This document shows, piece after piece, positions 25,034-29,459 of a stretch of DNA of 64,000 bases (position 1 is its first letter; the number at the start of each line of letters is the position of its first letter). Both the position numbers and the translations under genes were made by a program. Source of the stretch: Mesorhizobium sp. C432A (GTDB lineage Bacteria > Pseudomonadota > Alphaproteobacteria > Rhizobiales > Rhizobiaceae); the NCBI RefSeq assembly GCF_030323145.1, contig NZ_CP100470.1, positions 4,195,001-4,259,000 on the forward strand, read 5' to 3'. The notes below the pieces were generated by a model. It saw only the letters and a program-made list of their open reading frames with translations. It was not told the origin of the DNA and made no database searches.

Positions 25034-25457
25034 GGGGTGAAGATGCAAGACCTCATCGATTTCGTCCAGGCCAACTCGGCGCTGGGTTGGACAATCCTAT
25101 CGAATCATCGACCATCAGCGGCCAGACCGTCGAGATCCGGAAATGCGCACGATCTCGGCCGGTCGGCTTCGACGCAAAACATGCGGACCACCGCAGACGG
25201 GGACAGTCGGTCCCGCGTCCCGTCCTGCGGCCGGCGCTATGCTGACGCTCCTACGGCTGTCCTGTTCACCGCCCGCGGCGGGGGCGAATTTCCTCCGTCC
25301 TACGCGCGGCAATTGTCCGCTGTTGCGGACGCGCGCAGGACTGCGTTTTATACGCCGTCCTTCCTTTGGGCGCCGACGGTCGCCGGCGCGGGGACGGGTG
25401 GGCATGGAACCGAATCCGAGGCAGGGTATTGAATCGGACTATGTATCCGAGTTCCGC
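25034..25457. other. 424-base stretch without a supported gene
   Basis: Open frames exist on both strands here but their translations are Arg/Pro/Ser/Gly-rich and show no domain. A short coding-like start (MQDLIDFVQANSALGW, from 25043) loses its character after about 20 codons and may be a decayed remnant. No LigD phosphoesterase motif was seen. Confidence 0.4.
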
Positions 25458-27395
25458 ATGTCGGCTGTAGACGGCACCCTCAGTAAAAGGCGCACACGGC
25501 CCAGAGACTCAGAATCTGTCCCTACAAATCGGCTCCCGCGGTTTCGTCCCTTCCAGCTATGCACGCTGACAGACCACATACCGGTCGGCGGGGATTGGCT
25601 TTTCGAGATGAAGTTCGACGGCTATCGTGCCCAAGTCGCCATCTCCGGCTCGAACGTCGTTGTCTATACCCGCAATGGCCACGACTGGACCCGACAGTTC
25701 AAGGTCATCCTACCGCCGCTTCAGAGACTAACCAAAGGCGCGGTGCTGATCGATGGTGAGATCGTCGCCATCGACAGTCAGGGCCGCACGAACTTCTCCA
25801 TGCTGAAAACCGGCATCGCCGCGGGTATGCCCCTCAAGTTCTACGCCTTCGATCTGCTTGAATTCGATGGCGAAGATCTGTCGACCCTGCCGCTCCTTGA
25901 GCGCAAGGCGCGACTTGAGTCCCTGCTGGGCGCGCGCCGCCCTGACGACAGCCTGCAATTCTCCAGCCACATCGTCGACCAGGGCAGAAGGGTGTTCGAC
26001 GCCATGTGCGAGGGCGGCCACGAAGGCGTCATCGCCAAGCGCGCCGACAGCTCCTACGTCGGCGACCGCACCGGGAGTTGGCTCAAGATCAAGTGCACGA
26101 AGCGACAGGAATTCGTCGTCGGCGGCTACCGCCCAAGTGACACAGGACGTGGCATGGCATCGTTGATCCTCGGCACTTACGAGAATGGCAAGCTCATCTA
26201 TCGCGGCCGAGTCGGCACGGGGTTCACCGCGGCGATGCGCAAGGACATCCTCGCGAAGCTCGAGAAACGCCGTGTTGAGAAACCGGCTTTCGTCTCCGTT
26301 CCGAGAGACATTGCCCGCCGTGCCCGGTGGGTGAAGCCCGAGCTAGTTGCCGAAGTCACCTATGCCGAAGTGACACCGGACGGCAGCTTGCGACATCCAA
26401 GCTTTGAGGGCATGCGCGAAGATAAGCGAGCCGACCAAGTGGTAATGGAAATGCCGAAGACGCCGGCAACTCGTGGCTCCGCCAATCTCGATCCCGGAAT
26501 CGGCAAGGAGATCGCCGCTGCTGTCGGCGTCAAGCTGACGCATCCAGACAAGGTCATGTATCCCGGGACCAAGGTGACCAAGGCCACGCTCGCCGCCTAC
26601 TACGCCGTGGTCGCCGAGAAGATGCTGCCGCACATCCAGGATCGACCGCTGTCGCTGGTGCGCGATACCGATGGCGACCTGCAGCAGACCTTCTTTCAGA
26701 AGCACAGACTGCCCGGCATGCCCAAGGCCATCCATGACGGCCAGTTGGAGAAGATGTCCGGGAAGGAAAGCCGCATCTTGTGGGTCGATGACCTGGCTGG
26801 GCTGATCGCAGGCGTCCAGATGAACGTGCTCGAATTCCACATCTGGGGAAGCCTGCGCCAGCAGCCGGATCTGCCGCATCGCATGATCTTCGACATCGAC
26901 CCCGACGAAGGCTTGGGCTTCACTGCCGTCAAGCAGGCAGCCCTCGACATTCGAGGCATTCTGGAAGCGCTTGGACTGCAGTCGTGGCCGTTGCTGTCCG
27001 GCGGCAAGGGCGTTCATGTGGTCGTGCCGCTCGTCCCCGAGGCAGACTGGGACGAGGTCAAGAGCTTCTGCCAAGACTTCGCCGAACTACTGGCCCGTAC
27101 AGATCCGTCGCGCTTCCTCGCCAACATGAGCAGGGCGAAGCGCAAGGGCCGAATATTTCTCGATTACCTGCGCAATGGCCAGGGCTCCACTGCAATCTGT
27201 CCCTGGTCCACTCGGGCACGCGCGGGGGCGGCGTGCGCGGTGCCCGTCAGTTGGAAGGAGTTGCCCTCCTGCGAAAGCGCCAACGGTTTCGATGTTTTCG
27301 CCGCCGCCGCGCGGGCTCAGTTGCCCGAAGCCTGGGAGGGCTATTTCGACGTCGAACAAACGCTTACCGATCGCATCCGCCACGCAGTCCGGTAG
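25458..27395 (+). CDS. ligD: ATP-dependent DNA ligase LigD (ligase + polymerase domains, no PE domain)
   Basis: About 645 aa from the ATG at 25458 (an in-frame ATG at 25404 is possible). The ligase domain (about 35-330) has nucleotidyl-transferase motif I EMKFDGYRAQ with Lys52, IDGEIVAID and GVIAKRADS. The OB-fold region follows. The polymerase/primase domain (about 360-640) has IFDIDPDEG with the catalytic Asp pair and SGGKGVHVVVP. The N-terminal 3'-phosphoesterase domain of classical LigD is absent and no Ku gene is in the window. LigD performs non-homologous end joining with Ku. The order LIG-POL matches rhizobial LigD paralogues. Confidence 0.92.
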   Translation: MSAVDGTLSKRRTRPRDSESVPTNRLPRFRPFQLCTLTDHIPVGGDWLFEMKFDGYRAQVAISGSNVVVYTRNGHDWTRQFKVILPPLQRLTKGAVLIDGEIVAIDSQGRTNFSMLKTGIAAGMPLKFYAFDLLEFDGEDLSTLPLLERKARLESLLGARRPDDSLQFSSHIVDQGRRVFDAMCEGGHEGVIAKRADSSYVGDRTGSWLKIKCTKRQEFVVGGYRPSDTGRGMASLILGTYENGKLIYRGRVGTGFTAAMRKDILAKLEKRRVEKPAFVSVPRDIARRARWVKPELVAEVTYAEVTPDGSLRHPSFEGMREDKRADQVVMEMPKTPATRGSANLDPGIGKEIAAAVGVKLTHPDKVMYPGTKVTKATLAAYYAVVAEKMLPHIQDRPLSLVRDTDGDLQQTFFQKHRLPGMPKAIHDGQLEKMSGKESRILWVDDLAGLIAGVQMNVLEFHIWGSLRQQPDLPHRMIFDIDPDEGLGFTAVKQAALDIRGILEALGLQSWPLLSGGKGVHVVVPLVPEADWDEVKSFCQDFAELLARTDPSRFLANMSRAKRKGRIFLDYLRNGQGSTAICPWSTRARAGAACAVPVSWKELPSCESANGFDVFAAAARAQLPEAWEGYFDVEQTLTDRIRHAVR

Positions 27396-27499
27396 CAATA
27401 ACCAAACCAGATGGTTAGCGACATTTGATTTGGCGCGGACCGCCTTTGCCCAAATTCGAGAGCGTCCCCCTTCTACGGGAGGTCCCCGCAACGCCGTCT

Positions 27500-27580
27500 A
27501 GAGTGAGAGTACGGACCGGTTTGCCGTGACGGGTTGAGGGCTGGAGGAGAGGCCTCCGGCGCCCGTCGCGGAGAACCGCG
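27500..27580 (+). ncRNA. structured leader upstream of ardC (copy A)
   Basis: From AGAGTGAGAG (27500-27509) to the ardC ATG. Outer stem GACGGG (27528-27533) pairs with CCCGTC (27562-27567). Inner stem CTGGAGG (27541-27547) pairs with CCTCCGG (27553-27559), with a 5-base loop. The outer stem ends two bases before the GGAG ribosome-binding sequence at 27570-27573. The parB leader at 29009-29090 has the same architecture with different inner-stem bases. It may regulate translation or transcription; the mechanism is inference. Confidence 0.6.
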
Positions 27581-28552
27581 ATGTCCAGACATTACGCTCG
27601 CGCCGGCGCCGACCGGACAAGCCTCTATGACGATATCACCAACAAGATCATCGCGGAGCTGGAAGCCGGCCGCTTCCCCTGGGTGCAGCCCTGGGGAACG
27701 ACGGCGGGGCAAGCGCCCCTCGCCATGCCGGCCAATGCCACGACTGGCCGCGCCTATTCCGGGATCAACGTGCTGATCCTGTGGGGTGCGGTCGTAGAGC
27801 ATGGCTTTCCGGTCCAAAGCTGGCTGACTTTCCGCCAGGCGCTATCGCTGGGCGGCAATGTCCGCAAGGGCGAACACGGGACCACCGTCGTCTATGCTGA
27901 CCGCTTCATTCCTGACGACGAGAAGCATCGCGCGCGGGAAACCGGCGAGGCAGCACAGGCCATACCGTTCCTTAAGCGCTTCACCGTGTTCAACGTCGCG
28001 CAATGCGAAAATCTGCCAGACGATCTGGCCGCGGCTCCGCCTGCACCGGAACCCGGACTGATCGAGCCTACAGTCGAGGCGCTGATCAAGGCGACAGGTA
28101 TCGATTTCCGCATCGGTGGCAGCAGTGCCTATTATGTGTCGGCGCAGGACTACGTGCGGGTGCCGCCCCCGCAGGCCTATTTCGAGACCATCGACTGGCA
28201 CCGCACCGCCCTGCACGAGCTTGGCCATGCGACCGGCCATCCCTCCCGCGTCGGCCGTGACCTCGGCGGCGCCTTCGGCACCAAGAGATATGCTTTCGAG
28301 GAACTGGTCGCAGAGATGAACGCAGCCTTCTGCTGCGCCTCGCTTGGCATCGTGCCAACCGTGCGCCACGCCGACTACCTGGCCTCCTGGCTCAAGGTCC
28401 TGCGCGAAGACAACCGCGCCATCGTGCGCGCCGCCTCCCAGGCCAGCAAGGCGGCCGACTGGCTGCTCGCCTTCCTGCCGCAACCTGACGGTGCAGCCAG
28501 GGCAGGCCCGGCCGACGTCGATGAGGCCGAGATCGAGAGGAGGGCGGCATGA
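27581..28552 (+). CDS. ArdC-family antirestriction/ssDNA-binding protein with zincin-like domain
   Basis: Protein of 323 aa. The N-terminal ArdC/DUF1738 ssDNA-binding domain (about 15-135) has YDDITNKIIAELEAGRFPWVQPW and GRAYSGINVLILW. The C-terminal metallopeptidase-like domain has HELGHATGH (His-Glu-x2-His, third His two residues on) near residues 211-219. ArdC proteins travel with plasmids and ICEs and protect incoming ssDNA or block restriction. It is preceded by a structured leader and followed by DUF2958 with a four-base overlap. Confidence 0.92.
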   Translation: MSRHYARAGADRTSLYDDITNKIIAELEAGRFPWVQPWGTTAGQAPLAMPANATTGRAYSGINVLILWGAVVEHGFPVQSWLTFRQALSLGGNVRKGEHGTTVVYADRFIPDDEKHRARETGEAAQAIPFLKRFTVFNVAQCENLPDDLAAAPPAPEPGLIEPTVEALIKATGIDFRIGGSSAYYVSAQDYVRVPPPQAYFETIDWHRTALHELGHATGHPSRVGRDLGGAFGTKRYAFEELVAEMNAAFCCASLGIVPTVRHADYLASWLKVLREDNRAIVRAASQASKAADWLLAFLPQPDGAARAGPADVDEAEIERRAA

Positions 28553-28915
28553 TCCTCCTCACCGACGAACTGCGCAAACGCCTGCTGGCCAATGGCCGCA
28601 ACGCCGATCACGTACCGGTCGTGAAGCTCTTCAATCCGCTCGACGAAGGAACCTGGCTCGCAACCGAGCTGAGTGCCGATGGTGACACCATGTTCGGTCT
28701 CGCCGGTCTCGGATATCCCGAGCAGGGCAGTTTCTCGCTCTTCGAGATGACGTCGGTCCGGCTGCCTATCCGCATGGGCATCGAGCGCGATATCCTCTTT
28801 ACCACCGACCTACCGATTTCGGTCTGGGCAGAGGCCGCCCGCCGGGCCGGAAAGCCTTCGCGACGCGGAACGCATCCTCTACCACGCCGCCCAGTCTGGC
28901 CGAGACGGCGCGTGA
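28549..28915 (+). pseudogene. DUF2958 domain protein, probable 3' frameshift
   Basis: The start overlaps the ardC stop (ATGA). Residues 1-100 (ILLTDELRKRLLANGRNADHVPVVKLFNP...LPISVWAEAARRAG) follow DUF2958 proteins, which accompany ArdC and ParB on rhizobial plasmids and ICEs. After about 28850 the frame becomes Arg/Pro-rich and continues to 29160, overlapping parB. The +1 frame instead gives SLRDAERILYHAAQSGRDGA and a stop at 28913-28915, which looks coding. I infer a single-base indel near 28850. The main domain is probably intact, so the protein may still function. Confidence 0.55.
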
Positions 28916-29008
28916 GATCTCAGCTTGAAATCCCCAATGCCGCAGGTGCGCAAAGTCGTGTCTGCGGCCCTGTCGCCCTCCGGATTTTCGGTGTGCGGCG
29001 CAGTCCTC

Positions 29009-29090
29009 AGAGTGAGAGGGCTGCGCCCGTTTCTTTTGACGGGTTTGGAGGTCGAGAGAGTCTCGGCCGCCCGTCGCGGAGACAGTCCAC
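29009..29090 (+). ncRNA. structured leader upstream of parB (copy B)
   Basis: From AGAGTGAGAG (29009-29018) to the parB ATG. Outer stem GACGGG (29038-29043) pairs with CCCGTC (29070-29075). Inner stem GTCGAGA (29051-29057) pairs with TCTCGGC (29061-29067), with a 3-base loop. The 7-base spacer between the 5' arms and the CG between the 3' arms match the ardC leader. GGAG at 29078-29081 follows directly. Confidence 0.6.
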
Positions 29091-29459
29091 ATGGCTACGC
29101 CCAAGCAGAAGATCACCCTCAACGCTTCACGTGACATCCCCTTCAACAAGCTGGTGCTGAGCCAGGCCAATGTCCGGCGCATCAAGCGCGGGGAAACGAT
29201 AGAGGACCTCGCCGCCTCGATCGCACGACGCGGCCTCTTGCAGAGTCTCAACGTCCGGCCAGTGCTGGATGGCGAGGGCAATGAGACCGGCATGTTTGAG
29301 GTGCCGGCTGGTGGGCGCCGCTATCGCGCGCTGGAACTGCTGGTCATGCAGAAGCGCATGATCAAGACCGAGCCAGTTCCCTGCGTCGTCAGCGACGCCC
29401 ACAGCGCGGTCCCGATCGAGGAGGATTCGCTGGCCGAGAATTTTCAGCGCGAAGATTAG
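29091..29459 (+). pseudogene. ParB-like nuclease domain protein, truncated
   Basis: Only 122 codons. The N-terminal ParB domain is present (DIPFNKLVLSQANVRRIKRGETIEDLAASIARRGLLQSLNVRPV and VPAGGRRYRALELL), ending at the first part of the ENxQR motif (LAENFQRED). Rhizobial plasmid/ICE ParB proteins of this type are several hundred residues longer. The frame stops exactly where an unrelated permease gene on the other strand also ends abruptly. This marks a deletion or recombination junction. It has the shared leader upstream. It is unlikely to be functional in segregation. Confidence 0.8.

Follow-up and report, generated by a model that had tools for sequence, protein, structure and literature searches.

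The window, the whole 64,000-nt stretch of Mesorhizobium sp. C432A that was analysed, carries ardC, a DUF2958 gene and a truncated parB in one direction, with a structured leader before ardC and a second before parB (Table 1). Both leaders, which the initial annotation had placed at 27500-27580 and 29009-29090 with an outer and an inner stem, a CG spacer and a GGAG, were recovered by direct reading. The successive parts of the ardC leader are GACGGG (27528-27533), TTGAGGG, CTGGAGG (27541-27547), AGAGG, CCTCCGG (27553-27559), CG and CCCGTC (27562-27567), and those of the parB leader are GACGGG (29038-29043), TTTGGAG, GTCGAGA (29051-29057), GAG, TCTCGGC (29061-29067), CG and CCCGTC (29070-29075). 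The annotated outer stem GACGGG/CCCGTC is present but forms only part of a longer one: the four bases 5' of GACGGG pair with the GCGG after CCCGTC, giving a foot of ten pairs that reaches the ribosome-binding sequence. Likewise, the bases described as a 7-base spacer are there, but in the predicted folds they mostly form a 5-nt one-sided bulge.

Table 1. Features of the ardC-parB locus, in window coordinates.
Feature	Coordinates	Strand	Description and basis
Module A remnant (last of three hairpins)	27465..27496	+	CCCCCTTCTACGGGAGGTCCCCGCAACGCC; by-eye comparison with 51 distinct modules
Purine box of ardC leader	27500..27509	+	AGAGTGAGAG; 5' boundary of the conserved leader; read directly
ardC-leader hairpin	27524..27571	+	10-bp foot CCGTGACGGG/CCCGTCGCGG, 5-nt bulge TTGAG, 8-bp upper stem, loop AGAGG; folding and alignment
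Shine-Dalgarno GGAG of ardC	27570..27573	+	predicted pairing per base 1.00, 0.99, 0.00, 0.72
ardC	27581..28552	+	323 aa; ArdcN and MPTase-PolyVal domains; ATG at 27581
DUF2958 gene	28549..28914	+	overlaps the 3' end of ardC; homology to relative ends at residue 104 of 131
Purine box of parB leader	29009..29018	+	AGAGTGAGAG; read directly
parB-leader hairpin	29034..29079	+	foot TTTTGACGGG/CCCGTCGCGG with one U.C mismatch; 8-bp upper stem G-GTCGAGA/TCTCGGC-C; loop GAG; folding and alignment
Shine-Dalgarno GGAG of parB	29078..29081	+	read directly
parB, truncated	29091..29459	+	122 aa, residues 1-120 of a 703-aa relative; ATG at 29091

The hairpin cores were predicted to fold with -30.8 kcal/mol (z -4.68) for ardC and -23.8 kcal/mol (z -4.34) for parB, and folding of the whole leaders gave z-scores of -4.71 and -2.81, respectively. 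The annotated differences between the copies, three double changes among seven inner-stem pairs and one U-G kept in place, are right in the register in which they were described. These two window leaders alone would not have sufficed to establish a conserved RNA structure. Around the leaders, opposite-strand frames directly after parB resemble ABC-transporter permeases by eye, and the truncated parB, the shortened DUF2958 homology and these frames may together mark the broken edge of an integrated mobile element. The 750-aa open reading frame just upstream of ardC (25143-27395) looks by eye like a LigD-like DNA ligase; on plasmid pRCCGE531a, ligD is annotated close to a leader-bearing parB.

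The exact motif TGACGGGTT-N10-40-CCCGTCGCGGAG occurred only twice in the 6.02-Mb genome, both times as the window leaders, and not at all in the reversed control, indicating that the pair exceeds chance. Across the order, 40 of 297 genomes contained the same motif (reversed control, 0), which was also present in at least 119 stretches of genome contigs and in four viral contigs, two of these with the purine box. When the leader and the start of parB were compared with PLSDB by blastn, 376 plasmids were matched, 202 of which are typed as conjugative. The covariance-model search that the initial annotation had suggested was run with a model, R1, made from 60 aligned leaders (alignment A1, both window copies included) and comprising 85 positions and 18 pairs. 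At E<=0.001, R1 matched 20 of 289 genomes of the class, taken to be Alphaproteobacteria from the named leader loci (weakest E among the matches listed, 8.4e-6), and 21 of 249 genomes of the phylum, every one of them inside the class (weakest among the matches listed, 1.1e-7). Over the collected loci it gave 168 matches in 100 sources and then 134 in 88 sources. Most titled loci with the exact motif, among the matches listed, bear alphaproteobacterial names, and we take their genera to belong to Rhizobiales, Rhodobacterales, Sphingomonadales, Caulobacterales, Acetobacterales and Rhodospirillales. Loci from Actinomycetota and others (L058, L112, L113, L115, L145, L158 and L159) look like chance matches and are without the purine box; L112 is a false positive, although R1 gave it an E of 4.1e-5. 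L027 and L084 are real leaders with AAAG in the box, and L101 is a weaker member of the family. The chromosomal leader loci look like relics or integrated relatives of conjugative plasmids.

All of these leaders are built to one plan, in which a 5' AGAG-NN-AGAG box is followed, about 24 nt from the box start (22-25 nt to the foot), by a hairpin that has a foot of 10 bp, a one-sided bulge of 5 nt (mostly UUGRR), a variable 8-bp upper stem and a near-constant AGAGG loop. Within A1, the parB copy of the window has a 4-nt gap at the loop and its register is shifted relative to the ardC copy; from ardC to parB, columns 51/70 change from C-G to U-G and columns 53/69 from U-G to C-G, and double changes lie at 55/67, 56/66 and 57/65. 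Because the training leaders of R1 all contained the exact GACGGGTT and CCCGTCGCGGAG, it is a selection effect that the outer 6 bp do not vary in A1. We therefore turn to alignment A2, which also includes R1 matches without the exact motif and holds 143 distinct rows fitted to the structure, from 150 of the 168 R1 matches; the outer six pairs are still nearly invariant in it. Pairing was kept in 96.9% of the 2566 cells of A2, against 92.3% after column shuffling and at most 55.5% when the partner strand was slid by 1-3 columns, the slid control being the safer one, as kinship of the sequences alone can beat the shuffle control. Double changes occurred in 11 of the 18 pairs, all eight upper-stem pairs among them, and none of 500 shuffles reached the observed value on any of five covariation measures. 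Even in the foot, column pair 30/85 (UG in 111 rows, UA in 19 and CG in 9 of 143) and column pair 29/86 (GC in 117, GU in 18 and AU in 4) vary with pairing kept. The loop AGAGG had every base kept in 120-141 of the 143 rows, and the purine box is nearly constant, with columns 3, 4 and 11 invariant. Thus the conserved RNA structure proposed in the initial annotation is borne out by covariation among homologues beyond both controls, and it is nearly certain that the ardC and parB leaders of the window share this structure as members of one unnamed RNA family.

Operators often take the form of inverted repeats ahead of a gene, and the element could in principle be a double-stranded operator bound by a transcription regulator common to the genes. 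However, the sequence of the upper stem varies while its pairing is kept, it is the loop and not the upper arms that is constant, wobble pairs are common, and the element is tied to a Shine-Dalgarno sequence and a start codon; we consider an operator extremely unlikely.

The homologous leaders were found before many other ardC and parB genes, as the initial annotation had anticipated, and the leader reaches beyond the two co-mobile genes named there: it is set in a fixed position before the start codons of at least four gene families. We aligned 284 of the 302 R1 matches, thinned them to 260 distinct leaders and classed the genes behind them by blastp clusters: 114 encode ParB, 90 ArdC, 36 a DUF932-like protein and 11 an unknown 185-aa protein, which leaves nine singletons (L078 and L160 with two other short proteins, one apparent broken ardC, five genes cut by locus ends and one false match). 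The DUF932-like proteins, of about 398 aa, show weak similarity to DUF932 below the Pfam cut-off in the two members scanned, and PLSDB labels relatives of the leader-bearing protein as DUF932. The two members of the 185-aa family that were scanned gave no Pfam match (family members include L144:6906-7460 and L127:6795-7349), and we regard this family as a candidate establishment or anti-defence gene. One ardC frame behind a leader, at L073:1190, is 969 aa long and may represent ArdC fused to another protein. An ATG or GTG lay 4-9 nt after the GGAG in 164 of 164 distinct boxed leaders with the exact motif, which does not itself require a start codon; as background, GGAG sequences in general, taken from the window and from part of the collected loci, were followed by ATG or GTG at 4-12 nt in 860 of 3605 cases (24%). 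For ParB, a search of 190 genomes of the class gave 23 homologues at E<=1e-30, spread over 18 genomes, and 15 of the 23 have the leader. It was present in all 14 with at least 49% identity (two of them partial, one of these being the window's own) and in one of nine below this value, indicating that the leader goes with one ParB clade. The second ParB of this genome (C1:108203-110119), nearly full-length and 46% identical, is without it.

The 3' strand of the foot runs into the GGAG of the following gene. Pairing probabilities, computed for 248 leaders that were each extended by 40 nt of coding sequence, gave the first two G of this GGAG a mean predicted pairing of 0.97-0.99 in all four gene classes, compared with 0.76-0.83 and 0.65-0.78 in controls with a shuffled 5' part, which are themselves high because the DNA is GC-rich. 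For the A and the last G, the predicted values were 0.92 and 0.82 in parB, 0.62 and 0.77 in ardC and 0.61 and 0.77 in the DUF932-like class (controls, 0.27-0.43 and 0.26-0.45). The 185-aa class, at 0.26 and 0.29, was more open than its own control (0.41 and 0.45), and the A is also open in the ardC leader of the window, indicating that full occlusion of GGAG is not universal. In two ardC leaders folded whole, a further helix of the GGUU/AACC type encloses the ribosome-binding site. Judging from these predicted folds, translation is probably gated by occlusion of the Shine-Dalgarno sequence, with differences between gene classes, and from the same models we infer that the leader controls the expression of ardC and parB, as had been proposed.

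A bulged 18-bp helix of this kind before each of several co-directional genes would also suit an RNA-processing or stability element, in which an RNase III-type hairpin before each gene cuts a long early transcript and leaves a 5' stem-loop. An arrangement of this type is found in the early genes of phage T7, where an antirestriction protein is likewise the first product. The upstream sequences are in keeping with a shared transcript. In an alignment of 74 parB leaders anchored on the box, all columns 5' of it stayed below 0.5 bit, with no conserved column block that could represent a shared promoter directly 5' of the box, and the 50-160 nt 5' of the box showed no promoter-like signal by information content or by eye, so that one transcript may cover the genes. 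In ardC leaders the only conserved block upstream of the box is module A, described below; the DUF932-like (9 rows) and 185-aa (6 rows) upstream sets are too small for a promoter call. RNase III, however, is not known to need either the constant AGAGG loop or the AGAG box, and a mere cutting site would not require a foot paired into the Shine-Dalgarno sequence, and we therefore judge a processing site unlikely. A role of the purine box in pairing with a coding-region CTCT was also considered and rejected: such a CTCT lies early in some ardC and parB genes, is absent in the 185-aa class and is not confined to the gene start.

We also scanned 19 PLSDB records whole, chosen among the 40 matches listed for the leader and the parB start; as all carry leaders by choice, they say nothing about prevalence, and several have segments in common. 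Where a record had two or more leaders, these were all on one strand in 13 of 14 cases, the exception being W08, with leader groups on both strands, two of which have their own relaxase gene on the same strand. Relaxases identified with PF03432 and PF03389 gave 19 array-relaxase pairs on 18 records (W14, typed MOBF by PLSDB and without a match to either profile, and a third group of W08 with no relaxase nearby were left out, and weak PF03389 matches in W01, W03, W12 and W16 were not used). Array and relaxase lay on the same strand in 17 of the 19 pairs, and in 16 of the 19 the array was co-oriented with the relaxase gene and 12-47 kb upstream of it; in W05 and W11 the relaxase is on the opposite strand, and in W12, which shares a segment with W11, it is on the same strand but upstream. 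On pAMI8, for example, one strand carries the DUF932-like gene, radC, ParB, a 187-aa leader-bearing gene, an antirestriction gene, helicase, toprim, DUF2493, mobC and the relaxase, and the other carries integrases, bioB and others; on pYP1 of K. vulgare, ardC, DUF2958, parB, a strawberry-notch helicase, toprim, repA and parA run in one direction. Genes of the leading region generally have a set direction relative to oriT. By relaxase position and strand, the arrays have the geometry expected of leading-region genes transcribed towards oriT, and this rule of gene direction is also given in PMC11541004.

Such an orientation would also suit a single-stranded DNA element of the transferred strand, comparable to Frpo or ssi, that would start transcription or priming; on other plasmids, leading regions with promoters of this type contain anti-defence genes (PMC11541004). 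However, the leader fits the sense strand better. Its stems contain 348 G.U and 47 A.C cells in A2, and the template strand would turn the majority pair U30-G85 (111 of 143 rows) into an A.C mismatch; part of the G.U excess is due to composition, as column shuffles of the upper stem already gave 217 G.U and 110 A.C, where 149 and 38 were observed. In addition, the stem is GC-rich with no -10-like sequence by eye, and a Shine-Dalgarno sequence and start codon lie at its foot. The wobble bias lends moderate support to folding in RNA, that is, in the sense strand. A single-stranded DNA role for the leader is very improbable, and the element is very likely an mRNA leader rather than a DNA element.

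These objections concern the leader and do not cover module A, a separate block that precedes the first gene of many arrays. Its three hairpins are GGGGAAAG-CC-TTCCCC, a middle one that varies and a last one, CCCC/GGGG, that ends in GCAACGCCC; the block has a sharp 5' border at GGGGAAAG and was found at 58 places in 51 distinct versions (for example L061:1393-1471 and L069:752-832). Its 3' end precedes 50 of 82 ardC leaders and 12 of 31 DUF932-like leaders, compared with 1 of 113 for parB, 0 of 11 for the 185-aa class and 1 of 8 others. Read in the sense strand, the middle hairpin showed 194 Watson-Crick, 10 A.C, 2 G.U and 26 other cells over 29 distinct arm pairs (50 modules used, one dropped), a wobble bias opposite to that of the leader, in small numbers and with arm borders picked by best pairing. 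In L036, L074 and L089 module A is followed by other sequence without a purine box, indicating that it can stand apart from the leader. Module A may work as a DNA fold of the transferred strand, for example as a start for priming or transcription. In the window only its last hairpin was seen, as a remnant, and the first two were not.

This remnant raises the question of whether the window copy is a decaying relic of a plasmid or integrative element, in which the structure is real and its role has been lost. The parB stops after 122 of about 703 aa, the DUF2958 match covers 104 of 131 residues, the parB leader has a mismatch in its foot and a 4-nt gap at the loop, and a single module A hairpin is left; as parB is truncated, the second leader copy here is maybe a relic. 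Against this, the ardC frame is uninterrupted over 323 aa and has both domains, its leader scored 93.4 bits with the covariance model, fourth of 168 (being itself among the 60 training rows), and the near relative in Mesorhizobium sp. AR02 is 92.9% identical in DNA to the leader plus parB start, with 99% of the query covered. Loss of the role at this locus as a whole appears quite improbable.

With the family, its covariation-based structure, its place before start codons and its orientation relative to the relaxase gene shown, we propose, as the probable reading, a family of cis-acting mRNA leaders of alphaproteobacterial conjugative plasmids that gates the translation of establishment genes. 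As the predicted occlusion suggests, the folded leader would hide the ribosome-binding site; the constant purine box and loop would be the site of a trans factor, a protein or a small RNA, and this putative factor would set how open the leader is. The ardC, parB, DUF932-like and 185-aa genes would then be translated as one group upon establishment of the plasmid in a new cell. For R388, ArdC is described as needed in the recipient and not in the donor (PMC7213743). A bolder and rather doubtful extension is a single RNA regulon for plasmid entry, in which the putative trans factor, a zygotic burst of translation and a DNA-strand start at module A act together. This single factor, absent from a naive recipient and present in an established one, would hold down the translation of all four or more unrelated genes behind the leader, and a burst of ArdC, ParB and their partners would occur only after entry, amounting to zygotic induction at the level of translation; the array would thereby combine a DNA-strand start (module A) with RNA gates (the leaders).

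Soon after entering a cell, a plasmid needs antirestriction and establishment proteins, whose production must later be restrained, and our results suggest that one RNA switch is common to the genes that serve a plasmid while it settles in its new host. The shared leader can also be used to search for establishment genes, the unnamed 185-aa and DUF932-like families among them, and would add a covariance model to an RNA catalogue that has no match at these loci. We found no description of this leader in the open-licence literature, nor, for alphaproteobacteria (rhizobia, agrobacteria, paracocci and sphingomonads), an account of how establishment genes are controlled; in the main text of an S. 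meliloti sRNA survey (PMC2873474), ParB, antirestriction and ArdC have no occurrence.

The initial annotation knew of no named family for this leader, and in agreement with this, a search with all families of Rfam 15 gave no match in 27300-29300 at E<=5, and at the gathering score the whole window and 15 homologous loci gave only two tRNAs, with no match at the leaders; L061:1300-1700 had no match at E<=2 either. Genes preceded by the radC RNA motif include radC and antirestriction genes. The motif was reported as a structured element of Proteobacteria among 104 candidate RNAs (PMC2864571). As an identity for the leader it was rejected: its model (RF01754) spans 149 positions, compared with 85 in R1, and stayed below its 40-bit gathering cut-off at the leaders; its 8 weak matches in the window's own genome all lay outside the leaders, no match above cut-off was found in 142 genomes of the class or 15 leader-bearing loci, and seven true radC loci of another class scored at most 8.6 bits (E 1) with R1. 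STAXI (RF01728), the comparison proposed in the initial annotation, likewise gave no match in the window or the 15 homologous loci. Like the leader, it is found near antirestriction genes, along with those for single-stranded-DNA-binding proteins, topoisomerases and integrases (PMC2864571); it is, however, a pseudoknot present in at least two and usually three repeats in Enterobacteriales (PMC2864571), whereas the leader is a single bulged hairpin abutting the Shine-Dalgarno sequence. Frpo and ssi elements, which fold in single-stranded plasmid DNA, carry -35 and -10 sequences and precede leading-region genes (PMC11541004), are similar in being folded elements before such genes, but the leader shows its better pairing in the sense strand and lies directly against the ribosome-binding site. 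The early RNase III sites of T7 share with the leader the placing of one bulged hairpin just before each early gene. The leader differs from them in its constant loop, purine box and Shine-Dalgarno pairing, none of which is, to our knowledge, a family feature of the T7 sites. With compensatory changes in its stem and a fixed place before the start codons of defined genes, the leader has the general features of a structured cis-acting mRNA leader.
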